53,573 bases of DNA, taken from the NCBI GenBank assembly GCA_003222085.1, contig QHUK01000041.1, positions 1 to 53,573 on the forward strand, given 5' to 3'. Each line of letters begins with the position of its first letter. Position 1 is the stretch's first letter. The DNA is from Gemmatimonadota bacterium (GTDB lineage: Bacteria; Gemmatimonadota; Gemmatimonadetes; Gemmatimonadales; GWC2-71-9). This document shows positions 20,674 to 38,283 of this stretch, one piece after another. Made by a program: the position numbers and the translations under genes. A model generated the notes under the pieces. That model searched no databases, had not been told where the DNA came from, and saw only the letters and a list, made by a program, of their open reading frames with translations.

Positions 20674-21348
20674 ATGAGCCACCGCGTACTGATCATTGCG
20701 GCTCACCCCGACGACGAGGTGCTCGGGTGCGGCGGCACGGCCGCGTTGCACGTCCGAGCGGGCGACGAGGTGACGGCCGTGATCGCGTGTGAGGGGGAGT
20801 CGCTCCGCTACGGACCAGAGGGCGTCGGGCAGCCCGAGCATATCCGCCGCGCCGCCCGGGCGCTCGGCCTGCGGGAGACCCGCCAGCTGGGCTTCGCCGA
20901 TCAGCGGCTCGACACGCTGTCGCTGGTCGATCTCATCACGCCGCTCGAGCGCGTGGTGCGCGACGTGCGCCCGGCGGTCGTCTACTGCCAGTTCGGGGGC
21001 GACGCCAACCGCGACCACGAGCTGCTGTTCCGCGCCGCGCTCGTGGCCACGCGGCCGATCGAGCCGTACCTCGAGGCGGTGTACGCCTTCGACACGGCCT
21101 CGAGCACCGAGTGGGGCTACCCGCGAGCCTTCGTCCCCGACACGTGGATCGACATCTCCGAGACGCTCGAGCAGAAGCTGTGCGCCATGGCGTGCTACGA
21201 GAGCGAGGTCCGGCCGTACCCCCATCCCCGCTCGCTCGAGGCGCTGCGGCATCGCGCGCACGCCTGGGGGAATCACTGCTGCCTCGACGCCGCCGAGGTG
21301 TTCATGACGGTACGACGGAGCCTGCGCGGTGGCCAAACGCCTCTTTGA
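20674..21348 (+). CDS. PIG-L family N-acetyl-sugar deacetylase
   Basis: 224 residues. The zinc motif HPDDE is at 11-15 (IIAAHPDDEVLGCGG) and the distal His is in GGDANRDHELLF, as in PIG-L/LmbE/BshB enzymes, which remove acetyl groups from GlcNAc-containing substrates. It is cytoplasmic with no signal peptide, so it acts on a precursor or a lipid-linked sugar. The start ATG is 12 nt after the aminotransferase stop, with GAGG upstream, and the end overlaps the sugar-phosphate transferase by 20 nt. With the aminotransferase it could tailor an amino sugar before or after lipid loading. Confidence 0.9.
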   Translation: MSHRVLIIAAHPDDEVLGCGGTAALHVRAGDEVTAVIACEGESLRYGPEGVGQPEHIRRAARALGLRETRQLGFADQRLDTLSLVDLITPLERVVRDVRPAVVYCQFGGDANRDHELLFRAALVATRPIEPYLEAVYAFDTASSTEWGYPRAFVPDTWIDISETLEQKLCAMACYESEVRPYPHPRSLEALRHRAHAWGNHCCLDAAEVFMTVRRSLRGGQTPL

Positions 21349-22027
21349 CGTCGTCGTCGCGGCGCTCGGCCTCGTGGCCGCCGTCCCGGTCCTGCTGGTG
21401 GCCGCGGTGGGGATTCGCCTCTCGAGTCCCGGCCCGATTCTGTACCGCGCGCGCCTGGTCGGCCGGGACGGGCACCCGTTCACGATGTACAAGCTGCGTA
21501 CCATGCACCTGCACGCCCGCGGCTCCCGCAGCGTCATCACCGCGCAACACGACCCGCGGGTCTTCGCGTTCGGCCGCCCGCTGCGCCGGCTCAAGATCGA
21601 CGAGCTGCCGCAGCTCCTGAACGTGCTGCGGGGCGACATGTCCCTCGTGGGCCCGCGTCCGCAGCACCCCGACATCGTGCGGAGCTACTATGCGCCCGAG
21701 CATGGGGAGACGCTCCGGGTCCGCCCGGGTCTCGCGAGCCCGGGGAGCCTGTACGATTCGACGCACGGCGAGCCGCTCGTCGGCAGCGTCGATCCGGAAC
21801 GGGCGTACGCGGAGCGCCTGCTGCCCCTCGTGCTGGCGCTCGACCGGGTGTACGTGCGGCGGGCGTCCCTCTGGTATGACGCCACCATCGTGGGGCGGAC
21901 GCTCCTCGTGATCGCGGCCACGCTTTTCGGGCGCCGGAGGTTTCCCGATCCGCCCGAAATGCCCGAGGCCCGGGCCCTGCTGGGGCGCCAGTGGGGCGAC
22001 CGTATCAGCCCGCCAGCGAAGGTGTAG
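21329..22027 (+). CDS. Initiating sugar-phosphate transferase (WcaJ/WbaP-type, short form)
   Basis: 232 residues. One N-terminal hydrophobic re-entrant or membrane helix (about 8-28) is followed by the polyprenyl-phosphate hexose-1-phosphate transferase core: SPGPILYRARLVGRDGHPF, MYKLRTM, and KIDELPQLLNVLRGDMSLVG followed by PRP. It loads the first sugar-1-phosphate on undecaprenyl phosphate. It lacks the large polytopic N-terminal domain of WcaJ and is like the minimal PglC-type enzymes. It starts with GTG inside the deacetylase gene, showing tight coupling. The adjacent aminotransferase and deacetylase suggest that the first sugar is an amino sugar. Confidence 0.93.
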   Translation: MAKRLFDVVVAALGLVAAVPVLLVAAVGIRLSSPGPILYRARLVGRDGHPFTMYKLRTMHLHARGSRSVITAQHDPRVFAFGRPLRRLKIDELPQLLNVLRGDMSLVGPRPQHPDIVRSYYAPEHGETLRVRPGLASPGSLYDSTHGEPLVGSVDPERAYAERLLPLVLALDRVYVRRASLWYDATIVGRTLLVIAATLFGRRRFPDPPEMPEARALLGRQWGDRISPPAKV

Positions 22028-22163: not shown

Positions 22164-22187
22164 CTCCTCGCAGTGGAGGTTGCTCCC

Positions 22188-25100
22188 GTGCGGCTAAGCC
22201 CCCGAGCCATTCTCGCCGTGCCCGCCGCCCTGGCGGCAGCGGTGCTGCTCACCACGTGTACCGGCGACCGATCGATCGGCCCCAGTGCCCCGATCGGGCC
22301 GGGCGTCCTGGCGTCGGTCGGGACCGTGGTGGGACAGGTGCTGGTCGGCGCCGGGGACATTGCGCGCTGCGATCGGCAGAACGACGAGGCCACCGCGTCG
22401 CTGCTCGACACCATCCCCGGCACCGTCTTCACCGTCGGTGACAACGTCTTGGGTGGGAGTAGCAACCCTCCGGACTTCAACAACTGCTATGGCCCCTCCT
22501 GGGGAAAGCACAAGGACCGCACCCGACCCACCATCGGGCACATGGAAGGGTTCAGCCCCGGGTCCGCCACGTACTGGAAGTATTTCGGGGCCGCCGCCGG
22601 CGATTCGGGCAAGTTCTACTACAGCTACGACCTGGGCGATTGGCACATCGTGGTGCTCAACAGCGGCATCTCCACCCTTAAGGGCTCGACCCAGGAGCAA
22701 TGGCTCAAGGACGACCTCCTGCACCACCCGGCGCAATGCACGCTCGCGATGTGGCACGCCCCCCTCTTCAGCTCCACGTCCGGCAACGGCCTGCCGGCGG
22801 TGAACGACGCCGTGAGGCCGCTGTGGAATGATCTCTACGCCGCCGGGGCGGAGATCGTGATCAACTCGCACTACGAAGTCTACGAGCGCTTCGCCCCGCA
22901 GCGGCCTGATGGCGGCACTGATCTCATCGGCATCCGGCAATTCACCGTCGGCACCGGGGGAATCGGCGTCAACAGCTTCAATAGCAGCACCACGGCGCCG
23001 AACAGCGAAGTGCGCAACAGCGGCACCCCGGGAGTGTTGAAGCTCACGCTCGGCAGCAACGGTTACGCCTGGCAGTTCATCCCGATCACCGGGTTCACGT
23101 TCACCGACGCAGGGACCGGCGATTGCCATGGCAACACGCCGGGCCCGGCCGTCGCGTCGGTGGACGTGACTCCCAATCCCACGAGCGTGGAGATCGGGCT
23201 CGACGTCCAGCTGACCGCGACGCCGAGAGACGCCGCCGGCAACCCGCTGACCGACCGGCTCGTCTCTTGGGCGAGCAGCAACACCGCGGTCGCGAAGGTT
23301 TCCGGCGGCGGCGACGTCTTCGGGTGGACCGCGGGAACCGCGACCATCACGGCGACGAGCGACGGTGTGACCGGCAGCAACACGGTGACCGTGGTGTCGA
23401 CGACGGCTGCGGCGCTCGTCGGGGCCGGCGACATTGCCGTCTGCGACTCTCCAGAGGACGAAGCCACCGCTGCGCTGCTCGACATCATCCAGGGCACGGT
23501 GTACACCACGGGCGACAACGCCTATCCCGACGGGACGGCAACCCAGTTTACCAATTGCTACGGTCCATCCTGGGGGCGGCACAAGACGCGCACCAGGCCG
23601 GTAACGGGCAATCACGACTATACCACCGCGGGCGCTCCGGCTTACTACAACTATTTCGGTGCCGCTGCGGGGGACCCGACGAAGGGATACTACAGCTACG
23701 ACCTCGGCGCCTGGCACGTGATCGCGATCAACAACTACGTGGACGCGAGCGCGGGGTCGACCCAAGAGAAGTGGCTCAAGGCGGACCTCGCCGCCAGCTC
23801 CAAGCAGTGCACCGCGGCGATCTGGCACGAGCCGACGTTCAGCTCCGGTATTCTCCACGGCAACGGTCACACTGATTGGCTCGCCCTGTGGCAGGACCTC
23901 TATCAAGCAGGCGCCGAGGTCATCATCAACGGCCACGAGCACACCTACGAGCGGTTCGCGCCGATGACGCCGAACGGCGTGGCGGACCCGACGACTGGGA
24001 TCCGGGAGTTCGTGGTCGGCACCGGCGGAGCCGGGCTGGAAGCCCTCGGCACCATCCAGCCGAACAGCGAGGTGGTGCAGAATAGCGCGCACGGGGTGTT
24101 GCGCCTGGTGCTGCGCCCGACCGGGTACCAATGGAGGTTCTTCTCCGAGGCGGGCCAGGTCTTCTCGGACACCGGCACCGCTCCCTGCCACGGACCACCG
24201 GGAAACCAGCCGCCCGCTGCGTCGTTCACGTCGAGCTGCACCGGCCTGACCTGCCACTTCACGGACACGAGCATCGATCCCGACGGCAGCGTGGCGGCCT
24301 GGAGCTGGAGCCTCGGCGACGGCAGCACCTCCACCGATCAGAGCCCGGGGCACGTGTATGCCACAGGCGGCACGTACACCGTGAGGCTCACCGTCACCGA
24401 CAACAAGGGCACGACCAACTCAACCTCGCAGAGCGTCACGGTGACGCCGCCCAACACGCCCCCCACCGCTGCGTTCACGCAGAGCTGCACGGGGCTCGCC
24501 TGCTCCTTCACGAGCACCAGTACCGACCCCGATGGCACGGTGGTCGGGTGGAGCTGGAGCTTCGGCGACGGCGCGACCGCCACCGTTGCGAACCCCTCGC
24601 ACACGTATGCCGCGAGCGGCACCTACACCGTGAGCCTGACCGCCACCGATAACAGTGGCGGCACCGGGTCCACGTCGCAGAGCATCACGGTGACGCCGCC
24701 CAACACGCCGCCCACCGCCGCGTTTACGCAGAGCTGCACGGGGCTCGCCTGTTCCTTCACGAGCACCAGTACCGACGCCGACGGCAGCGTGGTCGCCTGG
24801 AGCTGGAGCTTCGGCGACGGCGCGACTGCCACCGTTGCGAGCCCGTCGCACACCTATGCCGCGGGCGGTACCTACACGGTGAGCCTCACCGTCACCGACA
24901 ACGGCGGCGGCACCGGGTCCACGTCGCGGAGCATCACCGTGGCGCCGGCCAACACGTCCCCCACAGCCGCGTTTACCCAGACCTGCACGGGGCTCACCTG
25001 CAGCTTCACGAGCACGAGTACCGACCCCGACGGCACGGTGGTCGGGTGGAGTTGGAGCTTCGGCGACGGCGCGACCGCCACGATCGCAAACCCGTCCCAC

Positions 25101-27251
25101 ACGTATGCCGCGGGTGGCACGTACACCGTGAGCCTCACCGTCACCGATAACAGTGGCGGCACCGGGTCCACGTCGCAGAGCATCACGGTGGCGCCGCCCA
25201 ACACACCACCCACCGCAGCGTTCACGTCGAGCTGCACGGCGCTCGCGTGCTCCTTCACGAGCACCAGTACCGACCCCGACGGCACCGTGGCGGGGTGGAG
25301 CTGGAGCTTCGGCGATGGTGCGACCGCCACCGTCGCGAACCCGTCGCACACCTACGCCGCGGGCGGCACCTACACCGTGAGCCTCACCGTCACCGACAAC
25401 AGCGGCGGCACCGGCTCCACGTCGCAGAGCATCACCGTGGCGCCGGCCAACACGTCGCCTACGGCCGCGTTTACCCAGACCTGCACGGGGCTCGCCTGCA
25501 CCTTCACGAGCACGAGTACCGACCCCGACGGCACGGTGGTCGGGTGGAGCTGGAGCTTCGGCGACGGCGCGACCGCCACCGTTGCGAACCCCTCGCACAC
25601 GTATGCCGCGAGCGGCACCTACACCGTCAGCCTCACCGTCACCGACAACAGCGGCGGCACCGGGTCCACGTCGCAGAGCATCACCGTGGCGCCGCCCAAC
25701 ACGCCGCCCACCGCGGCGTTCACCCGCAGCTGCACCGGGCTCGCGTGCTCCTTCACGAGCACGAGCACCGACCCCGACGGCAGCGTGGTCGCCTGGAGCT
25801 GGAGCTTCGGCGACGGCGCGACCGCCACGGTCGCGAACCCGTCGCACACCTATGCTGGGGGCGGCACCTACACCGTGAGCCTCACCGTCACCGACAACAG
25901 CGGCGGCACCGGGTCCACGTCTCAGAGCATCACGGTGACGCCGCCGAACCAGCCGCCCACCGCGTCGTTCACGCGCAGCTGCTCGGGGCTCGCGTGCTCC
26001 TTCACGAGCACCAGCACCGACCCCGACGGCAGCGTGGTCGCCTGGAGCTGGAGCTTCGGCGACGGCGCGACCGCCACCGTGGCGACCCCGTCGCACACGT
26101 ATGCCGCGGGCGGCACCTACACGGTGAGCCTCACCGTCACCGACAATAGCGGTGCCACGGGCTCGACCTCGCAGTCCGTCACGGTGACCGCTCCGAATCT
26201 CCCGCCGACGGCGTCGTTTACTAAAGCGTGCGGGGATCTGAGCTGCAACTTCACGAGTACGAGCACCGACCCCGACGGCAGCGTGGTCGCCTGGAGCTGG
26301 AACTTCGGCGACGGCGCGATCGCCACGGTCGCGAACCCGTCGCACACCTACGCGGCCGGCGGCACCTACACGGTGAGCCTCACGGTCACCGACAATGCTG
26401 CTGCCACGAACTCGACTTCGCAGGCCGTCACGGTCACGGCGCCAGTCGGGGCGCAGGTGCTCGTGGGAGCCGGGGACATCGCCCGCTGCGACCGGCAGAA
26501 CGACGAGGCCACCGCGGCCCTGGTCAACGGCATCTCCGGCACGGTCTTCACCGTCGGCGACAACGTTCAGGGCGGGAGCACCAGTCCTCCGAACTTCGTC
26601 AGCTGCTATGACCCCTCGTGGGGTGCCTTCAAGGGACGCACCCGGCCCGCCACCGGCCACATGGAGGGGTTCAGCCCCGGCTCCGCGACGTACTGGCAGT
26701 ATTTCGGTGCCGCCGCCGGCGATTCGGGCAAGTTCTACTACAGCTATGACCTGGGCAGCTGGCACGTCGTGGTGCTCAACAGCAACATCTCCATGTCCCA
26801 GGGCTCGCTTCAGGAGCAATGGCTCCGAACCGACCTCCAGCCCTACCGCACCCAATGCGTCGTCGCTATCTGGCACCTGCCGCTCTTTAGCTCCACGTCC
26901 GGCACCGGGCTGCCGGTGGTGAATGCCGCCGTGAAGCCGCTGTGGGACGATCTCTACGCCGCCGGGGCGGAGATCGTGATCAACGCGCACTACGAGGTCT
27001 ACGAGCGTTTCGCTCCGCAGACTTCGAGCGGCACGGCCGATCCCCAGCTGGGCATCCGGCAATTCACCGTCGGTACCGGCGGCATCGGGGTCAACAACTT
27101 CAGCGGCGGCACGGCGGCGAACAGCGAGGTGCACAACACCGGCACGCCGGGTGTCCTGAAGCTCACGCTCGCAACCAACAGCTACAGCTGGCAATTCATC
27201 CCGATTGCCGGGCTCAGCTTCACCGACAGCGGTAGTGGAGCATGCCATTGA
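22188..27251 (+). CDS. Giant lipoprotein with three metallophosphoesterase heads and nine PKD repeats
   Basis: 1687 residues. GTG 22188 is chosen because GGAGGT lies 7 nt upstream; the signal ends in lipobox LTTC. Order: phosphoesterase head 1 (about 51-314), a BIG2 Ig-like domain (318-404), head 2 (410-669), nine PKD domains of 83 residues (675-1421), head 3 (1424-1687). Heads resemble purple-acid-phosphatase-like calcineurin enzymes (GAGDI, VGDN, WHxPxF). Head 2 has the canonical GNHDY (474-478) and GHEHTYERF (582-590). Heads 1 and 3 instead read GHMEG (117-121; 1490-1494) and SHYEVYERF/AHYEVYERF, so two metal ligands are changed in both, in the same way. Every PKD has a conserved Cys pair. 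It is probably a long surface protein with one active and two altered heads. It sits inside the polysaccharide run, between the initiating transferase and the flippase fusion. Confidence 0.9.
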   Translation: MRLSPRAILAVPAALAAAVLLTTCTGDRSIGPSAPIGPGVLASVGTVVGQVLVGAGDIARCDRQNDEATASLLDTIPGTVFTVGDNVLGGSSNPPDFNNCYGPSWGKHKDRTRPTIGHMEGFSPGSATYWKYFGAAAGDSGKFYYSYDLGDWHIVVLNSGISTLKGSTQEQWLKDDLLHHPAQCTLAMWHAPLFSSTSGNGLPAVNDAVRPLWNDLYAAGAEIVINSHYEVYERFAPQRPDGGTDLIGIRQFTVGTGGIGVNSFNSSTTAPNSEVRNSGTPGVLKLTLGSNGYAWQFIPITGFTFTDAGTGDCHGNTPGPAVASVDVTPNPTSVEIGLDVQLTATPRDAAGNPLTDRLVSWASSNTAVAKVSGGGDVFGWTAGTATITATSDGVTGSNTVTVVSTTAAALVGAGDIAVCDSPEDEATAALLDIIQGTVYTTGDNAYPDGTATQFTNCYGPSWGRHKTRTRPVTGNHDYTTAGAPAYYNYFGAAAGDPTKGYYSYDLGAWHVIAINNYVDASAGSTQEKWLKADLAASSKQCTAAIWHEPTFSSGILHGNGHTDWLALWQDLYQAGAEVIINGHEHTYERFAPMTPNGVADPTTGIREFVVGTGGAGLEALGTIQPNSEVVQNSAHGVLRLVLRPTGYQWRFFSEAGQVFSDTGTAPCHGPPGNQPPAASFTSSCTGLTCHFTDTSIDPDGSVAAWSWSLGDGSTSTDQSPGHVYATGGTYTVRLTVTDNKGTTNSTSQSVTVTPPNTPPTAAFTQSCTGLACSFTSTSTDPDGTVVGWSWSFGDGATATVANPSHTYAASGTYTVSLTATDNSGGTGSTSQSITVTPPNTPPTAAFTQSCTGLACSFTSTSTDADGSVVAWSWSFGDGATATVASPSHTYAAGGTYTVSLTVTDNGGGTGSTSRSITVAPANTSPTAAFTQTCTGLTCSFTSTSTDPDGTVVGWSWSFGDGATATIANPSHTYAAGGTYTVSLTVTDNSGGTGSTSQSITVAPPNTPPTAAFTSSCTALACSFTSTSTDPDGTVAGWSWSFGDGATATVANPSHTYAAGGTYTVSLTVTDNSGGTGSTSQSITVAPANTSPTAAFTQTCTGLACTFTSTSTDPDGTVVGWSWSFGDGATATVANPSHTYAASGTYTVSLTVTDNSGGTGSTSQSITVAPPNTPPTAAFTRSCTGLACSFTSTSTDPDGSVVAWSWSFGDGATATVANPSHTYAGGGTYTVSLTVTDNSGGTGSTSQSITVTPPNQPPTASFTRSCSGLACSFTSTSTDPDGSVVAWSWSFGDGATATVATPSHTYAAGGTYTVSLTVTDNSGATGSTSQSVTVTAPNLPPTASFTKACGDLSCNFTSTSTDPDGSVVAWSWNFGDGAIATVANPSHTYAAGGTYTVSLTVTDNAAATNSTSQAVTVTAPVGAQVLVGAGDIARCDRQNDEATAALVNGISGTVFTVGDNVQGGSTSPPNFVSCYDPSWGAFKGRTRPATGHMEGFSPGSATYWQYFGAAAGDSGKFYYSYDLGSWHVVVLNSNISMSQGSLQEQWLRTDLQPYRTQCVVAIWHLPLFSSTSGTGLPVVNAAVKPLWDDLYAAGAEIVINAHYEVYERFAPQTSSGTADPQLGIRQFTVGTGGIGVNNFSGGTAANSEVHNTGTPGVLKLTLATNSYSWQFIPIAGLSFTDSGSGACH
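24210..26449 (+). repeat. Nine tandem PKD-encoding repeats, 249-bp period
   Basis: 2.24 kb of near-identical in-frame 249-bp units coding for 83-residue PKD domains (core WSWSFGDG, HTYAAGGTYTVSLTVTDN). Units 2 to 8 are most alike; units 1 and 9 diverge at the ends. The similarity holds at DNA level, including synonymous positions, so copy number could change by recombination, and short-read assembly of this stretch should be viewed with caution. Confidence 0.93.
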
Positions 27252-27283
27252 CCGATCGCCCTGAGAGAGGACCTGGTTGGCAC

Positions 27284-30229
27284 ATGCCGACGTCGCAGCC
27301 TACCCATCGCGATCTCACCCGGCAAACGCTGGGCGGGTTGGTGTGGATCGGCGGGGGCAAGGTCGTGTACGCCGGTCTGCGCCTCCTGGTGCTCGCGATC
27401 ATGGCGCGCCTGCTCTCGCCCGCCGACTTCGGCATCGTCGGGGCGGCGCTGGTCGTGGTCGGCTTCTCGGCCATCTTCTCGCAGCTCGGCCTCGCCCCGG
27501 CCATCGTCCAGCGACCGGTGCTCGAACGCCGTCACCTCGAGGCCGCGTTCTCCGCCTCGGTGCTGCTCGGCTTGCTGCTCGGCGTGCTCCTCTGGGTGTC
27601 GGCTCCGTTCGCGGCGCGGTTCTTCCACATCGCGGGCGTGGAGCCGGTGCTGCGGGTGCTCGCGTGGATCTTCCCCCTCGACGGCCTCTCGGCCATCGCC
27701 GAGTCGCAGGTGCAACGCGAGCTGCGGTTCCGCTGGTTGGCGACGATGGAAGTGCTGACGTTCGTCCTGGGCTACGGAGTAGTCGGCGTCGTGTTGGCGC
27801 TGCTTGGCGCCGGGGTGTGGGCGCTGGTCACGGCGCAGATGGCCCAGACGGCCCTCTATACCATCATCCTGGTCGTAACCCGGCCGCCGGCGCTGCGCCT
27901 GCTCCCGGATCGCGCCGCCCTCGGGGAGCTCATGTACTACGGGGGCGGGTTCACCGCCTCGAAGATCGCGAACTATTTCGCGCTCCAGGTCGACAACCTG
28001 GTCGTGGGGCGGTGGCTCGGTGCGGCGGCGCTCGGATTCTACGGGCGGGCCTACGAGCTGATGGCCGGACCGCCGCATCTCCTGGGCGACGCGGTGGATC
28101 GGGTGCTGTTCCCGGCGATGGCGAGCATCCAGACCGACACGCGCCGACTGGCGGATGCCTACCGGCGCGGTGTAGCGTTGATGGGGCTCATCATGCTTCC
28201 GGCGAGCCTGGTCCTCTTCATCGTGGCGCCGGAGTTGATCCTCGCGATGCTCGGCCCCCGCTGGACCGCCGTGGTGACGCCGTTTCAGATCCTGGCGCTC
28301 GGCATGTTCCTCCGCACGAGCTACCGGATCAGCGACGTCACCGCCCGCGCCACCGCCGCCGTCTATCACCGCGCCTGGCGGCAGCTGGTGTACGCGCTGT
28401 GCGTGCTGACGGGGGCGTTGGTCGGCAAGGCGTGGGGCATCGACGGCGTCGCGGCGGGCGTCGTCGGCGCCCTGGCCGTGAACTTCTTCCTGATGGCCGA
28501 TCTCGGCCTCCGGTTGACCCGGCTGCCGTGGCGGAGCTTCTGGGACGCGCACACGCCGGCGCTCGCGCTCGCCGCGGCCGCCGGGCTGCTCGCCGGCGGA
28601 GCGACGGTCGCGCTCCGTGCCCTGGGCGCTCCTTCCTTGGAGCTGTTGTTCGCGACGCTCGCGGTAACGGTGGGCGGGATGGTGCTGGTCGTGTGGAGCG
28701 CTCCGAGCCTGTTCCTCGGGCCTGACGGGCGCTGGTTCGTCGCCGCACTGCGGGCGTTTCTCCAACAGCCGCAGGTCACGCTCGCGGGCGCGGCGGCGGC
28801 GCCGGTCAACGGCACCATGCCGCTCGTCACCCGGCTGGCCGAGGCGCTGCGCATACACGGCATCCGATACTGCCAGTGGAAGGGTCACCTGAAGCGGCAG
28901 CGCTGGGGCGCTGGCGACGGCGACATCGATCTCCTGGTGGACCGTGCGGACGAACAGCGCTTTACGGCCGTCCTACACGAGCTGGACTTCAAGCTGGCAG
29001 ACTCCTGGTACGGCCGGCACATTCCCGACCAGCTGCACTTCTTCGGCTTTGACCCGGACACGGGCAAGCTGCTCCACCTCCACGTCTACTACCGCCTCGT
29101 AGTGGGCCGGCCGTGGGTGACGACGTACGTCCTCCCCATCGAGCAGCCCCTCCTCGACTCCGCGGTCCAGAACGGCGTGTTCCAGACGCCGGCAGCCGAG
29201 CTGGAGCTCGTCCTGCTGGTGCTCCGCACGGTGGCGCGGTTCTCGCTGCGGGACGCGCTCGTGCCGGGGCTCCCGCGGTGGCTCCGAGACGTCCAGCCCG
29301 AGCTCGCGCAGCTCGAGGGACAAAGCGACCGGAATCGCCTGCGCGAGCTCCTGGACCGGCACCTCCCCTGGATCGACGGCTCCTGCTTCGAAGCGTGTCT
29401 CCAGGCGCTGCGTCCCGGCTTCCCTGCCTGGCGGCGGGCGCTGGTCAAGCATGCCTTGCATCGGCGCCTGCGGCCGCAGGCCCGGCGCGCGCCCCTGGCG
29501 TTGCGACTCGTAACCCTGGGGGGGCGCATCCGGACCCTCGGCGGCGTGCTCGCCAGTCCTCCCTCGCACAAGTACATCGCCGGCGGCGGGAAGATCGTGG
29601 CGTTGGCGGGCGGGGACGGCGCAGGCAAGACGACCTGCGCCACCGCACTGCACGCCTGGCTCTCCAAGGACTTCGCCACGATGCGGGCACACCTGGGGCG
29701 GCCCCCGAAAACCCTCGCGACCCTCGCCGTCAGTGCGGCGATCCGGGTCGCCGGCCGGTTCAAGTGGTTGGGCACCTCTACCCTCGAGCAATACCTCGAG
29801 CTCTTGTACCATCTCGCGACCGCACGGGACCGCTATCGTCTCTACCGCAAAGTTCGCCGCTTCACGGCCAACCAGGGGCTCGCGATCTGCGAGCGCTACC
29901 CGGTGCCCGAGAACCACCAGTTCGTAGGGCCGCGTATCGAAGAGCTGGTCGCCAGCGTGCCGTACCCGCGCGTCGCCGCGCTCCTGGCGCGAGTCGAGCG
30001 GAGCTATTACGACCGGATCGGCCCCGACAGCCTCCTCGTGGTGCTGCGGGTCGATCCCGAAACGGCCGTCCGGCGCAAGACGACCGAGCCGGCCGACTAT
30101 GTCCGCAGTCGAGCGCAGACGGTCTGGGAGACCGATTGGAGCCAGACGCGCGCGCGCGTCGTGGACGCCAACCGGCCGTTGCCGGACGTCGTCGCCGACC
30201 TGAAGAGGATCATCTGGACTACGCTCTAG
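27284..30229 (+). CDS. Wzx-type flippase fused to nucleotidyltransferase and thymidylate-kinase-like domains
   Basis: 981 residues from ATG 27284 (an ATG at 27242 adds 14 residues and overlaps the previous stop). Part 1 (about 1-490) is a polytopic Wzx/MOP-type polysaccharide flippase: about 12-14 hydrophobic helices, starting RQTLGGLVWIGGGKVVYAGL and including YYGGGFTASKIANYF. Part 2 (about 515-740) is a nucleotidyltransferase-fold domain of the NTP_transf_5 sort: YCQWKG at 529-534, then GDGDIDLLVD with D545, D547 and D549. Part 3 (about 770-981) is a thymidylate-kinase-like P-loop domain with GGDGAGKT (776-783). The last two domains should be cytosolic. Stand-alone relatives of both lie in the same operon (NTase 37234-38283; kinase 35344-36006), and this fusion suggests the pair works together at the flipping step. 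The substrate is unknown. Confidence 0.9.
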   Translation: MPTSQPTHRDLTRQTLGGLVWIGGGKVVYAGLRLLVLAIMARLLSPADFGIVGAALVVVGFSAIFSQLGLAPAIVQRPVLERRHLEAAFSASVLLGLLLGVLLWVSAPFAARFFHIAGVEPVLRVLAWIFPLDGLSAIAESQVQRELRFRWLATMEVLTFVLGYGVVGVVLALLGAGVWALVTAQMAQTALYTIILVVTRPPALRLLPDRAALGELMYYGGGFTASKIANYFALQVDNLVVGRWLGAAALGFYGRAYELMAGPPHLLGDAVDRVLFPAMASIQTDTRRLADAYRRGVALMGLIMLPASLVLFIVAPELILAMLGPRWTAVVTPFQILALGMFLRTSYRISDVTARATAAVYHRAWRQLVYALCVLTGALVGKAWGIDGVAAGVVGALAVNFFLMADLGLRLTRLPWRSFWDAHTPALALAAAAGLLAGGATVALRALGAPSLELLFATLAVTVGGMVLVVWSAPSLFLGPDGRWFVAALRAFLQQPQVTLAGAAAAPVNGTMPLVTRLAEALRIHGIRYCQWKGHLKRQRWGAGDGDIDLLVDRADEQRFTAVLHELDFKLADSWYGRHIPDQLHFFGFDPDTGKLLHLHVYYRLVVGRPWVTTYVLPIEQPLLDSAVQNGVFQTPAAELELVLLVLRTVARFSLRDALVPGLPRWLRDVQPELAQLEGQSDRNRLRELLDRHLPWIDGSCFEACLQALRPGFPAWRRALVKHALHRRLRPQARRAPLALRLVTLGGRIRTLGGVLASPPSHKYIAGGGKIVALAGGDGAGKTTCATALHAWLSKDFATMRAHLGRPPKTLATLAVSAAIRVAGRFKWLGTSTLEQYLELLYHLATARDRYRLYRKVRRFTANQGLAICERYPVPENHQFVGPRIEELVASVPYPRVAALLARVERSYYDRIGPDSLLVVLRVDPETAVRRKTTEPADYVRSRAQTVWETDWSQTRARVVDANRPLPDVVADLKRIIWTTL

Positions 30230-30233
30230 CTCC

Positions 30234-30911
30234 ATGACGCCGCCACGACCTGTCGTGATCGAGCTGATCGGCCCGCCGGGCGCGGGCAAGAGTACGCTGG
30301 CGCGGATGCTGGCCGAGCGCGATCATCGGATTCGTGCGGGACTGGGTGTGGACCACGTCCCGGCCGCGGTGCGCTTCGCGAGCGCCGTGCGCACGCTTCC
30401 CACGCTGCTGGACCTGTGTCGCAGCACCGCCGGGCTCCCCTGGGCCGAGAGTCGGCAAATCATCCGCCTGCATGCGCTGGGCGCGTTCCTTGCGCATGGG
30501 GCCACGAACGGCAGTCGCGTTCTCCTCCTGGAGGAAGGGCCCGTGCTGGTGCTGAGCTGGCTCCACGTCTTCTGTCCCGCCACGCAGAGCGACCCCGTGC
30601 TCGGGCGCTGGCGCGAGCGGGCGCTGGCGCAGTGGGCTGCCGTCGTCCGGCTGGTCCTGGTCCTCGACGCTCGGGACGACGTCTTGCAAGAGCGCATCCG
30701 CGCCCGCGCCAAGCCTCACCTGGTCAAGCACAAGACCGACCGGGACGTCGCGGCGTTCATCGCGTCGTTCCGCGTCGCCTTCGCGCAGGTGACCGCGGCG
30801 CTCGCCCGCCACGGCACGAGCCTCGCCACGGTACGCACCGACGACGCGCCGCCGGCGCAGGTCGCCGAGCGGGTCCTCGCGATGCTCTTCCGGGAGACCA
30901 CCCGGTGCTGA
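30234..30911 (+). CDS. Small P-loop kinase-like protein
   Basis: 225 residues, cytoplasmic. The Walker A is GPPGAGKST (13-21) right after a short strand (VVIELI), as in adenylate/thymidylate/shikimate-type small-molecule kinases. A hydrophobic strand ending in two acids, VLLLEEGPVLV, is a plausible Walker B, and RIRARAKP resembles a lid Arg region. I cannot name the substrate. It starts 5 nt after the flippase fusion, which itself ends in a P-loop kinase domain, and overlaps the Wzy gene. Three separate P-loop kinase domains in this operon suggest a phosphorylated glycan or lipid intermediate, though none is proven to act on sugar. Confidence 0.75.
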   Translation: MTPPRPVVIELIGPPGAGKSTLARMLAERDHRIRAGLGVDHVPAAVRFASAVRTLPTLLDLCRSTAGLPWAESRQIIRLHALGAFLAHGATNGSRVLLLEEGPVLVLSWLHVFCPATQSDPVLGRWRERALAQWAAVVRLVLVLDARDDVLQERIRARAKPHLVKHKTDRDVAAFIASFRVAFAQVTAALARHGTSLATVRTDDAPPAQVAERVLAMLFRETTRC

Positions 30912-32149
30912 CCTCCCCGGCCGCCGCCGCGCTCACGCGCGCGCCCCTTGCCGGGCGTCCGCGTACGCACCCGCCGCTGCGCGTCGTGCATCCGGTGGTC
31001 CGCTGGGCGTTCTACCTGTTCGTGTTCTCCCTGCCGTTCGAGTATCCCAAGCGAACGATCCCCTGGGAGGTCACGACGCTCACCTGCGCCGCCTTTCTGC
31101 TCGCCGCACTGCTCCAGCCGCGGACCAGCTTCGCCCGCCTCCCCTGGGCGGTGCGGTGGTTCGGCGTGTACCTGTACGTCCTGCTCGGCGCGTTCGTCGT
31201 GGACGGGGGCCACTACGGCGACCAGGTCCAGAAGCTGTTCACTCTGCTCCTGGAAGCGGTGCTCCTGCTCTGGGCCGCTTCCAACGTGCTGGACTACGAG
31301 GATGTCGCCCGCGGGGCGCTGGTGTCGCTGGGGGTCGCGAGCGCGCTCCGTGCCGCCATCCAGCTCGCCGGCATCGGCACGGAGCGGATCGTCGAGTGGA
31401 CCGGGGGGGTGCGGATCACCGCCCTCGGCCAGAACGAGAATCACGCCGCGATGATTCTCAGCGGCGGCATCATCGCCCTGCTCGGGCTCGCCTACGGGCG
31501 CGCGCACAGCACGCGGTGGGCCCGCGCGCTCGCCTGGCCCGTCGTGGGGGCCATCGCCATCGCCATCGTCCAGGGCGGCTCCCGTGGGGGAGTGCTCGCG
31601 CTGGGCGCGGGGCTCCTGGCGCTCACGCTGGGTGGCGCGAGCGTCGCGACTCGCCTGCGCAACGCCGCCGCCGTGCTGGTCGCCCTCGGGTTCCTGATCT
31701 GGGTGTCGTACCAGTTCGTGGGCACGCGCAACCGGTTCCTCCAGACGGCCGAAACCGGGTTCATGGCGGGACGCGAGCGCATCTATCCGACCGCGTTGCG
31801 GATGGTCCTCGAGCACCCGCTCACGGGCTGGGGGCCGCTCACCAACATGTACGAGCTCGGCAACCGGCTCCCGGAGCAGCACGTGCCCCGCCGCGACACC
31901 CACAACCTCGCGCTCGAGGTCTTGACGTCGACCGGGCTCCTGGGAATGGTCCCCTTCGCCCTCGGCACGTGGCTCTGCCTGCGCGCCGCCTGGCGGGCGC
32001 GCCGCGGCGTCGAGGGAATCACGCCCTTCGCCCTGCTCATCGCCGTGCTGGTGGTCAACATGAGCGGGAACTGGATCGCCACGCCGCTCCTGTGGCTGAC
32101 GTTCGCGTACGCGCTGGCGAGCGGTCGCCAGCCCACCGTGGCCACCTGA
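30905..32149 (+). CDS. O-antigen polymerase / ligase (Wzy-like)
   Basis: 414 residues, polytopic with about 10-12 hydrophobic helices, and the Wzy_C/O-antigen ligase signature: GQNENHAAMILSGGIIALLG, GGSRGGVLAL and the late TGWGPLTNMYELGNR followed by HNLALEVLTSTG. It polymerises lipid-linked repeat units in the periplasm, or ligates them to an acceptor. In a locus with Wzx, Wzc and Wza a polymerase is the simpler reading. The GTG start overlaps the stop of the upstream kinase by 7 nt, and asnB starts 1 nt after its stop. Confidence 0.9.
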   Translation: MLTSPAAAALTRAPLAGRPRTHPPLRVVHPVVRWAFYLFVFSLPFEYPKRTIPWEVTTLTCAAFLLAALLQPRTSFARLPWAVRWFGVYLYVLLGAFVVDGGHYGDQVQKLFTLLLEAVLLLWAASNVLDYEDVARGALVSLGVASALRAAIQLAGIGTERIVEWTGGVRITALGQNENHAAMILSGGIIALLGLAYGRAHSTRWARALAWPVVGAIAIAIVQGGSRGGVLALGAGLLALTLGGASVATRLRNAAAVLVALGFLIWVSYQFVGTRNRFLQTAETGFMAGRERIYPTALRMVLEHPLTGWGPLTNMYELGNRLPEQHVPRRDTHNLALEVLTSTGLLGMVPFALGTWLCLRAAWRARRGVEGITPFALLIAVLVVNMSGNWIATPLLWLTFAYALASGRQPTVAT

Positions 32150-32150
32150 T

Positions 32151-34079
32151 ATGTGCGGCGTCGCGGGGCGGTTCCACCCCGTCGCCCTGGGCGGCGCGCC
32201 CGGCTGGGCCCCCCGGGTGTCGGCGTTGCTCGCTCACCGCGGTCCGGATGGCGAGGGGCACTACAGCGACGACCGGTGCGAGCTCGTCCACCGCCGGCTG
32301 GCGCTGATCGACCTCTCGCCCACAGGGCACCAGCCGATGGCCAACGAGGACGGCAGTGTCTACGTCGTCTTCAACGGCGAGATCTACAACCATCGAGATC
32401 TGCGGAGCGAGCTCGAGCGCCGGGGTCATCGGTTCCGCGGCACCTCGGACACGGAAGTGCTCGTGCACCTCTACGAGGAGCACGGCGAGCGCATGGCCGG
32501 CCGGCTGCGGGGCATCTTCGCTTTCGCGATTTATGACTCGCGTCGGCGGGCGCTGTACCTCGCGCGCGACCGGTTCGGCGTGAAGCCCCTGTTCTACGCG
32601 CTCCACAACGGCGAGTGGGTGTTCGCCAGTGAGATCAAAGCCATCCTCGCCCTGCCGGGGTTCCGCCCGGCGATCGACCGCCAGGCGTGCTACGACTTTC
32701 TCGGCCTGGGCTACGTGCCCGAGCCGGCGACCGGGTTCGCCAATGTCGAGGCCGTCCCCAAGGGGGCGGCGCTGACGGTCAACGCCGCCGGACCGCACTG
32801 GGTGCGTTTCCACGAGGTGGCGGCCCGGCCCGACCACGCCCGCCGGCTGGACCAGGCGGCCGCGGACGTGGAACACGCCTTGCTCGACGCCGTCGGACGG
32901 CAGGCCATCGCCGATGTGCCGGTGGCCGCCCTGCTCAGCGGCGGCATCGACAGCTCGCTCGTCGTCGCGGCGCACCGCCGGGCCACCGGCGGGTCGACCG
33001 CGACGTTCAATGTGCGATTCCCCGCCAAGAGCCACGACGAGACCGCGATCGCGGTCGCGGTCGCCCGGCACTGCGGCACGGCCCACCGCACGATCGATCT
33101 CGGGGACTGGAATATGAGCGCCGACGCGGTGCTCGATCTGCTGCGCCACTTCGATCAGCCGTTCGCCGACCTGAGCCTCCTGCCGATGTACTGGATCTCT
33201 CGGGCGATCCGCGATCAAGGCATCATCTGCGCGCTGTCGGGCGACGGCGGCGACGAGGCGTTCGGCGGGTACCCGCGGTTCTGGCGGGCCAACCGGCTGG
33301 TCCAGCTCATGCGGCTCCCCCCCTGGCTGGGCAACTCGGTGCGCCTGGGAGGCAGGGCGCTCGCGGGTTGGACCCGAGACTGGGGTCGTCAGGTCGCGAA
33401 GGCGGTGGAGCTCGCCCAGGTCGGAGCGCGCGATGGGGCGTTCCTCATTTCCGGGCTCTCGAACTACCTGAGCGAAGACGACAAACGGGACCTGGTGCGC
33501 CCGATCGCCCGGAACGGGTTCCTGCCCGCCTGGCGTCACTACAACGAGTACGACCCGCCCGGCGTGACCGACCTCGAGGAGCTGTCGCAGCGTCTGACCG
33601 AGACGCTGTTCAAGATCAGTCTGCCGTCCGACATGCTGCGCAAGGTGGACATGATGAGCATGCGCGCGAGCATCGAGGTCCGGGTCCCGATGCTGGACGA
33701 GGATGTCGTCGCCCTCGGGCTCACGCTGCCGCATCGCCTCAAAACCGACGGCACCACCGGCAAGCAGGTACTGCGCGCCCTCGCCCACCGGTGGCTCCCG
33801 CCCGTCGTCGCCGCGCATCCCAAGCACGGGTTCGCGATTCCCGTGGACGTGATGGTGCCCGACGCCTTTTACGAGATCCTCGCCGACTTCCTCCTCTCGC
33901 GGGACGCGCGCACCGGCGGCTTCCTCGCCCCGGAGGTGGTCCGGCAATGGCTGTACGCATTCCGTCGCGCCCGGGACGGGCATTACCTCGGCACCATCAG
34001 TCGGGGCGGCCTGTACCAGCGGGTGTTCATCGTCCTCGCGCTCGAGCTGTGGATGCGGGAGCATCACCTCTCATGGTGA
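32151..34079 (+). CDS. asnB: Asparagine synthase-like amidotransferase
   Basis: 642 residues. The N-terminal class II glutaminase begins MCGVAGRF, so Cys2 is the nucleophile, with LAHRGPDGEG and FNGEIYNH. The synthetase domain has the PP-loop SGGIDSS (about 262-268) and SGDGGDEAFGGYP. AsnB paralogs inside surface-polysaccharide loci amidate sugar acids such as uronic acid residues; that is more likely here than asparagine supply, but sequence alone cannot separate the two. It is placed between Wzy and a GT4 glycosyltransferase, with a 7-nt overlap into the latter. Lasso-peptide-type AsnB was considered and set aside because no RRE or protease partner is present. Confidence 0.92.
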   Translation: MCGVAGRFHPVALGGAPGWAPRVSALLAHRGPDGEGHYSDDRCELVHRRLALIDLSPTGHQPMANEDGSVYVVFNGEIYNHRDLRSELERRGHRFRGTSDTEVLVHLYEEHGERMAGRLRGIFAFAIYDSRRRALYLARDRFGVKPLFYALHNGEWVFASEIKAILALPGFRPAIDRQACYDFLGLGYVPEPATGFANVEAVPKGAALTVNAAGPHWVRFHEVAARPDHARRLDQAAADVEHALLDAVGRQAIADVPVAALLSGGIDSSLVVAAHRRATGGSTATFNVRFPAKSHDETAIAVAVARHCGTAHRTIDLGDWNMSADAVLDLLRHFDQPFADLSLLPMYWISRAIRDQGIICALSGDGGDEAFGGYPRFWRANRLVQLMRLPPWLGNSVRLGGRALAGWTRDWGRQVAKAVELAQVGARDGAFLISGLSNYLSEDDKRDLVRPIARNGFLPAWRHYNEYDPPGVTDLEELSQRLTETLFKISLPSDMLRKVDMMSMRASIEVRVPMLDEDVVALGLTLPHRLKTDGTTGKQVLRALAHRWLPPVVAAHPKHGFAIPVDVMVPDAFYEILADFLLSRDARTGGFLAPEVVRQWLYAFRRARDGHYLGTISRGGLYQRVFIVLALELWMREHHLSW

Positions 34080-36006: not shown

Positions 36007-37250
36007 CGACCGCGCCTCTCCTCGTCGATGCCGGCACCGGGTTCCGGATCGTACCGGCTCGGGCGCTCCTCCCCGAGCTCCCCGCCGACCTGTCCGCGAT
36101 CCTGTTCCACGAGCGGGCGCCGGTCGGCCACACCGTCCGCGTATGCGCCGTGGGCGACAGCGGGCTCTCCGGACAGGTCGGGCGCACGGCCTCCGAGCTC
36201 GGCTACGGCGCACTGTTGCGCGAGGTCGCGCCTCTGCTGCAATCCGCGGCGGCCGCCTTCGCGAACCTCGAGGGGACGTTGATCGAGCGCCCCCGCGACG
36301 CGCTGTTCGCGGCGCCTCCGGCCGCCGCCGAAGCCTTGAGACAGGCGGGCGTGACGATCGTGCACCTGGCCAATAACCACGTGTACGATTTCGGTCCGAC
36401 CGGCCTCGCCTCGACACTGGCGGCCGCGGCAGGCGCGAATCTCGTCGCACTCGGCGCCGGCGATGATGCCGCGGCGAGTCGGCGACTCGTGCGGACCGAG
36501 TGCCGTGGGGTGCGTGTCGGGTGGCTGGGCTGTGGCCGGACCCTCCTTCCCCAAGACACCGGGGCCCGCTTCTGGGAGTTCGACGAGCAGGAGCTGCTTA
36601 GCGCGATTCGCAAGGCGCGTCCGTCGGTCGACGTCCTGATCGCGTCCGTACACATCGGCTTCATGTACCTCGACTACCCCCATCCCGACCATCGGGCGAT
36701 GGCGCAACGCTGCGCGGCGGCAGGCGCCGACATCGTCCTCATGCACCACCCCCACGTGCTCCAGGGGATCGAGACGACACCCGACGGGAAGATCGTCTGC
36801 TATAGCCTCGGCAACTTCCTGTTCGACTGGAAGGAAGGGCTGATCACCAATCAGGTGATGGTGCAGGAGCAGAACGAGGGCGCGGTGTTCGTGTTCGACC
36901 TCGACCGGTCAGGGGTCGCGCGAGCCGCGGCGGTCCCGACACGGAGCGACGAGGCCTGCCGCGTGCGGTGGGCCGGCGGAGAACGCGGGGACGCGATTCT
37001 CGATCGGTTGCAACGGATCAGCCGGCCGTTGGGAGGGAACTACGCCCCGGCGTTCTGGCGCCAGCGATCCGAGCGCAACACCAAACACGTACTGCGGATG
37101 CTGCGCTTCTACATCGTGCACGGCGAGTGGGGCAGCGTGTGGCGGATGTTCACCAAGGTCCGGCGGCACCACCTCCGCATGCTGGCCCACTGGGCGCTCG
37201 CGAGCTTGCGACCTCGGGGGCGGAAGGATTCCCATGCGCCGGCGAGCTGA
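36003..37250 (+). CDS. CapA-family (PGA_cap) metallophosphatase-fold protein
   Basis: 415 residues. Motifs of the CapA/PgsA family are clear: AVGDSGL (49-55), ANLEGTL (87-93), HLANNHVYDFG (121-131), HIGFMY where relatives often have HWG, and HHPHVLQGIE. The fold is that of calcineurin-like phosphoesterases. CapA proteins are needed for poly-gamma-glutamate capsule and for several exopolysaccharides; their chemistry is uncertain. No clear signal peptide, so this copy may be cytoplasmic or held by partners. Its ATG overlaps the kinase stop (ATGA) and its end overlaps the NTase. Confidence 0.88.
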   Translation: MTTAPLLVDAGTGFRIVPARALLPELPADLSAILFHERAPVGHTVRVCAVGDSGLSGQVGRTASELGYGALLREVAPLLQSAAAAFANLEGTLIERPRDALFAAPPAAAEALRQAGVTIVHLANNHVYDFGPTGLASTLAAAAGANLVALGAGDDAAASRRLVRTECRGVRVGWLGCGRTLLPQDTGARFWEFDEQELLSAIRKARPSVDVLIASVHIGFMYLDYPHPDHRAMAQRCAAAGADIVLMHHPHVLQGIETTPDGKIVCYSLGNFLFDWKEGLITNQVMVQEQNEGAVFVFDLDRSGVARAAAVPTRSDEACRVRWAGGERGDAILDRLQRISRPLGGNYAPAFWRQRSERNTKHVLRMLRFYIVHGEWGSVWRMFTKVRRHHLRMLAHWALASLRPRGRKDSHAPAS

Positions 37251-38283
37251 TCCCCGCAGCGCGCCCGAGGCGGTCGGCGAGCTGCTGCTGCGGCTGCTGC
37301 TCGAGGGCGCAGCTGCGCCGCTCAGTGCGTCCCCCGACTTCTGGGATTCCCTGCTGCAGGTGGCCTGCGGGAACGCCGTCCTGCTCCGCACCGCCGCTTC
37401 CCTCGAGCGCCTGGGGATCGACGGTCCGGAGCGGTTTGTCGCGGGCGTCGCCATCGAGCGCGAGCGGGCGCAAGCGCTGGTCGCGGGGGTTCAGCGCGTA
37501 AGCCGCGTCTGCTCGGAGTATCGGATTGCGCATCTGTTCCCCAAAGCGTTCCAGCACTATCCGGACATGGGGCGAGACGCGGACCTGCTCGTCCTGGCGC
37601 GGCCCGGCGAGCTCGTCCCCGTGCTGGCCGCCCTGGGCGCCGTCACCAACCCCGGAGGCTTCTCCGACTGGGTGGCCGCGACCGTCCGGTATGTGTTGCC
37701 GGGTTGTCCCGGACCGCTCGACGTCCAGTACGGGACGCTGGGACTGGTGGGGGAGCACGCGGGCTATGCGGCCCAACTGGTCGCGAACCGCGCCCAGATG
37801 GTCATCGCAGACGCCACCGTCGTCGTCCCCGCCGTCGACGACCAGCTGCTCCTCCAGGGTGTCCAGCGCATCTTCGGGCGCTTGTCGCTCCGGCTCGCCG
37901 ACATTACCTGGGCCATCGGCGCGCTGACCCGCGGGCGACTGAACTGGGACTACGTGGTGCGCACGGCGCAGCGCATCGGCGTGACACAGGGCTTGGGCTG
38001 CTTTCTGAGCTACGTCGAACAGATTCACGGTCGGCTGTTCTCGGGTACGCTGGTGCCGACCACCGTGCGCCGCCACCTGCCGCTCCGCGGCTGGGGCACG
38101 ATCGAATTTCGCGACGGGCGGTATCGATTCCCGGCCCTGCGCGTCAACGTCCGGCTCTCGGTCGGAGGCCTCGAGGCCAAGCTCGCGCGCCGTGACTGGG
38201 CGGGCGCCGCCCGCCTGTCGCTCGTGCCGCTCCTCGGCGTGGCGACAACGCTGGGCCGCCTGTCGCACGCGAGGGCGCGATGA
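37234..38283 (+). CDS. Nucleotidyltransferase-fold protein (stand-alone)
   Basis: 349 residues, similar to the uncharacterised NTP_transf_5-type family. The active-site-like string is K104 then D111-x-G113-x-D115-x-D117-L-L-V (PDMGRDADLLVL), which parallels GDGDIDLLV in the middle domain of the flippase fusion. The rest is helical with no membrane segment. Members of this family occur in lasso-peptide and polysaccharide clusters and are thought to transfer nucleotides or phosphates, but substrates are mostly unknown. It overlaps CapA (17 nt) and the PaaK-like ligase (ATGA). Confidence 0.78.
   Translation: MRRRADPRSAPEAVGELLLRLLLEGAAAPLSASPDFWDSLLQVACGNAVLLRTAASLERLGIDGPERFVAGVAIERERAQALVAGVQRVSRVCSEYRIAHLFPKAFQHYPDMGRDADLLVLARPGELVPVLAALGAVTNPGGFSDWVAATVRYVLPGCPGPLDVQYGTLGLVGEHAGYAAQLVANRAQMVIADATVVVPAVDDQLLLQGVQRIFGRLSLRLADITWAIGALTRGRLNWDYVVRTAQRIGVTQGLGCFLSYVEQIHGRLFSGTLVPTTVRRHLPLRGWGTIEFRDGRYRFPALRVNVRLSVGGLEAKLARRDWAGAARLSLVPLLGVATTLGRLSHARAR

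Follow-up and report, generated by a model that had tools for sequence, protein, structure and literature searches.

How Wzx-type flippases discriminate finished from unfinished repeat units is an open question, and one gene in the window (the whole stretch of Gemmatimonadota DNA analysed, 53,573 nucleotides) bears on it: can a single chain both finish a lipid-linked sugar unit and carry it across the membrane? If a flippase does carry its own tailoring enzymes, discrimination could be tested in one purified protein. The original prediction was that a full flippase, a nucleotidyltransferase (NTase)-fold domain and a thymidylate-kinase-like domain share one frame, and profile searches, fold matches and recurrence in other proteins confirmed all three parts. 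We consider the three-part fusion almost certainly genuine (Table 1).

Table 1. Features of the fusion gene and the surrounding locus (positions in the window)
Feature	Position	Strand	Details
Fusion gene, MOP/Wzx-family flippase + NTase-fold domain + thymidylate-kinase-fold domain	27284..30229	+	981 aa
Flippase part	27314..28756	+	Residues 25-505 of the 995-aa frame
NTase-fold domain	28805..29569	+	K-[G/S], GxxDxD and HxH motifs
Thymidylate-kinase-fold domain	29585..30226	+	P-loop intact (K782 in 981 numbering)
Second P-loop kinase	30234..30911	+	225 aa; separate gene, starts 4 bases past the fusion stop
Wzy-type polymerase/ligase, next gene	30912..32149	+	Wzy_C 60.8 bits, cut-off 31.7; start not fixed, open frame from 30416
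Asparagine-synthase-like amidotransferase	32151..34079	+	PF00733 236 bits
Initiating sugar-phosphate transferase (PF02397), upstream	21329..22027	+	165.6 bits, cut-off 27
Protein with nine PKD repeats and a metallophosphatase domain, directly upstream	22173-27251		1692 residues
Second, separate PF14907-like protein	37234-38283		349 aa; 19.6 bits, under cut-off 31.2

The longest frame available to the gene spans 27242-30229 (995 aa), and the start at 27284 is backed by the relative P0004. PF13440 matched the protein over nearly its full length (profile positions 1-292 of 293) with 250.3 bits against a curated cut-off of 23, PF01943 reached 114.7 bits (cut-off 28.2), and a profile built only from eight separate flippases matched residues 22-509 with 451 bits. 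The folds of the NTase and kinase domains are predicted. The kinase domain has a thymidylate kinase fold with a P-loop and appears thymidylate-kinase-like, while its identity as a dTMP kinase is not supported by the curated profiles, both of which scored under cut-off (PF02223, 14.8 against 27; TIGR00041, 17.6 against 83.25). The NTase domain shares the fold of solved nucleotidyltransferases and their DxD acids, and its close fold matches include toxin-type NTases. No NTase match from Foldseek reached E 0.001 (best 1.2e-3), nor did any from a viral library, where LicD-named entries were among the weak matches; in a sequence search of solved structures the NTase profile gave only chance matches, the flippase profile none, and the profile of the whole soluble NTase-kinase half (hereafter the module) mostly P-loop proteins. 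The Pfam family PF14907 (NTP_transf_5) scored 19.7 bits on the protein and 23.7 on the domain, under its curated cut-off of 31.2, matched 38 of the 53 NTase domains in our alignment at E 0.01 or better, and is present as a precomputed assignment in some relatives. A search of the open-access literature for this family by accession or name yielded nothing.

Searching protein databases for the three-domain architecture recovered the same domain order in relatives, the soluble half, roughly residues 506-995 of the 995-aa frame, being 62-89% identical in the closest three and as little as 29% identical in others. When long proteins were searched with the soluble half, scoring of the 7,983 candidates that had the most words in common with it gave 26 matches, with flippase domains in 15 by database Pfam annotation and in 16 by our own profiles. 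Six of these 16 consist of flippase plus module (P0003-P0008, of which P0003 is the window's own cluster and P0005 carries a Gemmatimonadales name), two are partial (P0025, P0026), and eight have additional C-terminal sequence (P0013, P0015, P0017, P0019, P0021-P0023, P0028). The extra C-terminus is a second kinase in seven of the eight, scoring 193-207 bits with a profile drawn from separate genes only; that of P0028 looks P-loop-like, on Pfam matches that all fall below cut-off. In P0015 roughly half of the flippase is missing. An initiating sugar-phosphate transferase (PF02397) is joined to the module in another five of the 26, in full in P0009-P0012 and in part in P0016, and five have neither flippase nor initiating transferase. 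The early profiles were partly built from sequences that were later scored, among them parts of the window, P0005, P0009, P0013 and P0028; the same domain layout was obtained with profiles free of the window and of any fused protein.

Fusions of other kinds were found among the loci. Two Myxococcota bins encode the module fused to a family-2 glycosyltransferase (GT2; L059 7119-9368 and L060 6939-9398, 90.7 and 94.6 bits, cut-off 23.3), and L061 has part of a GT2 on the module. An AAA_33-type P-loop kinase precedes the module in one frame in genome G370 (L018 1495-3897, - strand). In G262, of the same genus as the window, one frame (L004 1-1906, - strand) combines the second kinase at residues 131-354 with a divergent MOP flippase that runs from residue 351 to 635, where the examined stretch breaks off. 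The N-terminal extensions of L008, L015 and L076 matched no family, and for that of L048 the sole matches were weak ones to protein-kinase/APH families, below cut-off. The modules of L016 (genome G348) and P0015 are nearly identical, yet the former encodes the second kinase in an overlapping gene of its own and the latter has it fused, either because the fusion is recent or because one of the two sequences contains an error.

Within the phylum, a scan of 395 genomes gave matches in 127, mostly below 30 bits and to the P-loop region; among the matches listed, strong ones (150 bits or more) fell at 28 places in 22 genomes. We inspected 22 of the 28 places and found a flippase in the same frame in two, L009 (the window) and L016; the idea that the fusion is common to the phylum was rejected on this count. 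Nor is it fixed: in the genus of the window, the places inspected in G111, G233 and G262 carry free modules, and G157, G271 and G371 have no module. In G228 and G339 a separate flippase gene directly precedes the module gene in head-to-tail order, a state from which a fusion could arise. The acidobacterial locus L038 has its own flippase gene immediately before the module, and the encoded protein shares 50% identity with the fused flippase. A quick tree required four changes of the flippase-fused label. Single origin gave AU p 0.618 on the NTase-kinase tree (15 fused rows, without P0028 and with P0014 counted as fused although its short flippase part escapes the flippase profile) and AU p 0.457 on the flippase tree (15 fused flippases, with P0028), both trees carrying long-branch warnings. 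As one origin is not rejected, several independent fusion events were dropped as an explanation and we limit our claim to a fusion old enough to span 29-89% identity.

The genes around the fusion indicate the pathway in which it may act. Upstream are an aminotransferase, the initiating transferase and the PKD/metallophosphatase protein; downstream follow the second kinase, the Wzy-type gene, the asparagine-synthase-like enzyme, two genes without a Pfam match and a PGA_cap protein, and further on the PF14907-like protein and an AMP-binding enzyme (both under cut-off), an ATP-grasp protein, a FemAB/GNAT protein, an epimerase/dehydratase and an oxidoreductase. The second kinase matched AAA_33 with 34.7 bits (cut-off 27) and, over residues 1-225, a profile made only from 19 kinase genes adjoining free modules with 199 bits; it is 34% identical to the neighbouring gene in L038 and 47% identical to the C-terminal part of P0013. 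The amidotransferase scored above the asn_synth_AEB cut-off and below that of the XrtA/PEP-CTERM amidotransferase model. Taken together, the genes resemble an exopolysaccharide or capsule locus of the Wzx/Wzy type, whose product is probably decorated with amino acids or amino sugars. Elsewhere the genome encodes two more flippases that score above the PF13440 cut-off, so the fused flippase is probably dedicated to this locus. Relatives of the PKD/metallophosphatase protein (cluster c17) also occur in module loci L032 and L035-L038. The separate PF14907-like protein sits between the PGA_cap protein and the AMP-binding-like enzyme.

The module itself is mostly a free protein, and fusion is therefore not needed for its function. 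Among the 7,996 best candidates, 523 matches fell in the standalone size range, the best 120 of these being 322-530 aa in length. Records bearing the module are labelled Gemmatimonadota, Acidobacteriota, Cyanobacteriota, Chloroflexota and Planctomycetota as well as Pseudomonadota, Bacteroidota, Actinomycetota and Myxococcota. A bin labelled Halobacteriales also carries it (L069 2883-4481), perhaps through contamination of the bin or horizontal transfer. Methylobacter marinus, a Pontibacter and a Tolypothrix are cultivable carriers. Neighbourhoods were counted in 48 of 80 loci, 32 having been set aside (L078, L081-L111) as nearly all kinase-half-only matches, with L084 (match 22-434, both halves) among them; dropping L055, where only the kinase half is present, left 47 loci with 49 two-domain modules. 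Of these 49, 35 have a second P-loop kinase (three related gene clusters pooled) on the same strand no more than 450 bp away, and in 14 none was seen within that distance; a flippase is present in the locus of 32 and was not detected by two profiles in the neighbourhoods of 17. Where over 3 kb of sequence flanked the module on each side, as it did for 36 modules, the counts were 28 with the kinase, 22 with a flippase within 3 kb and 14 with a flippase within 900 bp.

Proximity to a flippase is shared with other genes of such loci. A flippase lies within two genes of the module in 18/28 cases, of the main second-kinase cluster in 14/17 and of an epimerase cluster in 8/9; the figures for the other control clusters were 11/29 and 0/8 for two GT4 clusters, 7/15 for Wzc, 4/8 for Wzy and 0/6 for PF02397. 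Because nearness is not unique to the module, we take the linkage as a sign of pathway membership and give the fusions more weight. Some of the neighbouring flippases are of a second type, a divergent MOP flippase. With E values of up to 1 allowed, PF01943 matched five of its 12 members (best E 4e-12) and PF13440 four (best E 3e-6); one member had no Pfam match in the first scan, and a profile alignment over 452 columns gave E 6e-5 at a probability of just 65%. In Acetobacterium and a Firmicutes bin (L078, L081, L082), mainly kinase-half relatives adjoin two consecutive MOP flippase genes. The NTase-kinase half is apparently an undescribed module, and the fusion provides a handle on this widespread protein without known function.

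Over 103-104 aligned sequences (numbering of the 981-residue protein), active-site residues of the soluble head are strongly conserved. The kinase residues K782, E905 and R931 are invariant (104/104) and R871 nearly so (103/104). Of the DxDxD-type acids originally noted, D547 (101/103) and D549 (98/103) are conserved, as is K533 (100/103), whereas D545 is an aspartate in just 14/103 sequences. A DxD pair supplies metal-binding acids in the NTase fold, with a third acid expected on a later strand. At the place where that acid would presumably lie, judging by sequence and not by superposed coordinates, there is an HxH motif (H598 92/104, H600 103/104). Since the motif was placed in this way we do not call the domain inactive; histidines where an acid is expected could mean a different chemistry and make nucleotidyl transfer unsure.

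What, then, does the head do? Because kinase and NTase folds depend on nucleotides, the head is expected on the cytosolic side, and the even helix number of MOP flippases fits this placement. One kinase or both would place a phosphate on the glycan or on some small substituent, the NTase-fold domain would next add a phosphate-linked group, and the tailored unit would be handed to the attached flippase, such that only finished units are flipped. Flippases, initiating transferases and GT2 enzymes typically work on lipid-linked intermediates, between the start of an undecaprenyl-linked glycan and its flipping. As these are the fusion partners of the module, our preferred reading is that the head tailors the lipid-linked unit and that this step is coupled to flipping; donor synthesis ranks second and regulation third. 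That the fusion finishes the unit on the cytosolic face and carries it across with its own flippase part is a serious candidate, which we put at a little below even odds. The coupling originally proposed gains only indirect support from the flippase, PF02397, GT2 and second-kinase fusions and neighbours, while its nucleotidyl-transfer component is left in doubt by the HxH motif. A broader and distinctly more tentative proposal is of a cross-phylum system, not yet described, for tailoring envelope glycans, in which the NTase/kinase enzyme and a second P-loop kinase install a phosphate-based substituent on lipid-linked repeat units, and which in Gemmatimonadota would be wired into the flippase, sometimes as a single chain of ~1,200 residues; this would be the first modify-then-flip machine for polysaccharide lipids, with decoration licensing export.

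The head might instead make a soluble activated donor, such as a nucleotide-activated substituent, for the same pathway, fusion setting only equal amounts or location with no direct hand-over. We regard this as possible though unlikely. Several points accord with donor synthesis: the module occurs mostly as a free soluble protein, a monophosphate is the usual substrate of thymidylate-kinase-like kinases, kinase and NTase pairs make activated donors in other pathways and operon neighbours are often fused. The actual fusion partners (flippase, PF02397, GT2 and second kinase) do not, and among the proteins and loci examined for fusions none joined the module to a nucleotide-sugar supply enzyme. 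Less probable still is a sensor or regulator that gates flipping by binding or using nucleotides or by modifying proteins. MviN is MurJ, a MOP-type flippase, and to our knowledge the nearest known flippase with a kinase-like domain. The mycobacterial protein is reported to bear a C-terminal pseudokinase domain, deficient in ATP binding, that recruits an inhibitor (PMC12599244), so membrane proteins with a kinase-like regulatory domain at this end do exist; an NTase lacking a clear third acid and the toxin-type fold matches would also suit regulation. Unlike the MviN pseudokinase, however, the head has strongly conserved active-site residues, and a pathway enzyme would better explain both the second kinase next door and the fusions to PF02397 and GT2. 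The notion of an assembly or annotation artefact, for which one could cite the window being one whole contig of a 70-contig genome, is rejected as having a negligible chance, since the fusion recurs in separate proteins at 89, 62 and 63% identity and in a second genome (G348) and codon-position-3 GC is even, which equally disposes of a frameshift or missing stop confined to this assembly.

Coupled tailoring and flipping, the reading we prefer, has partial counterparts in known systems. MprF is built of domains unrelated to those of the fusion. This lysyl-phosphatidylglycerol synthase-flippase is reported to modify a lipid in the inner leaflet and then flip it, both in one chain (PMC8131360), and modify-and-flip is what the two may share. 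The MprF substrate is a phospholipid and its modification aminoacylation, where for the fusion we propose a polysaccharide lipid and nucleotides; no MprF family was among the five Pfam and five NCBIfam families matched at E 0.1 or better, and the fusion may still act in an MprF-like manner. LicD, like the head, contains an NTase fold. The MOP flippase TacF is reported to require phosphocholine placed by LicD in the cytosol on pneumococcal teichoic acid (PMC13385700), so LicD1/LicD2 with TacF may parallel the fusion in pairing a MOP flippase with a phospho-substituent added in the cytosol. They differ in being separate proteins that use CDP-choline as donor and have no thymidylate-kinase-like domain, and Pfam scans of the protein (E 0.1) and of the 53 NTase domains (E 0.01) returned no LicD family. 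For the lasso peptide pseudomycoidin, a review describes the kinase PsmK followed by the NTase-like PsmN, which adds a hexose to the phosphate, and cautions that the NTase might instead transfer a nucleotidyl group, with glycosylation left to a host enzyme (PMC9266682). A kinase followed by an NTase-like enzyme acting on the phosphorylated product would be the likeness; the peptide substrate and free proteins are the difference. MviN resembles the fusion as a flippase with a C-terminal kinase-like domain, which is reported to be a Ser/Thr-type pseudokinase, whereas the fusion combines an NTase fold with a P-loop kinase fold that retains its conserved residues and invariant lysine. As the original prediction had it, flippase-NTase-kinase is not a known architecture, no description being found in the open-access literature searched (most subscription papers lie outside that scope). 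The architecture is real, undescribed in that literature, and kin both to modify-and-flip systems and to phospho-decoration before export.
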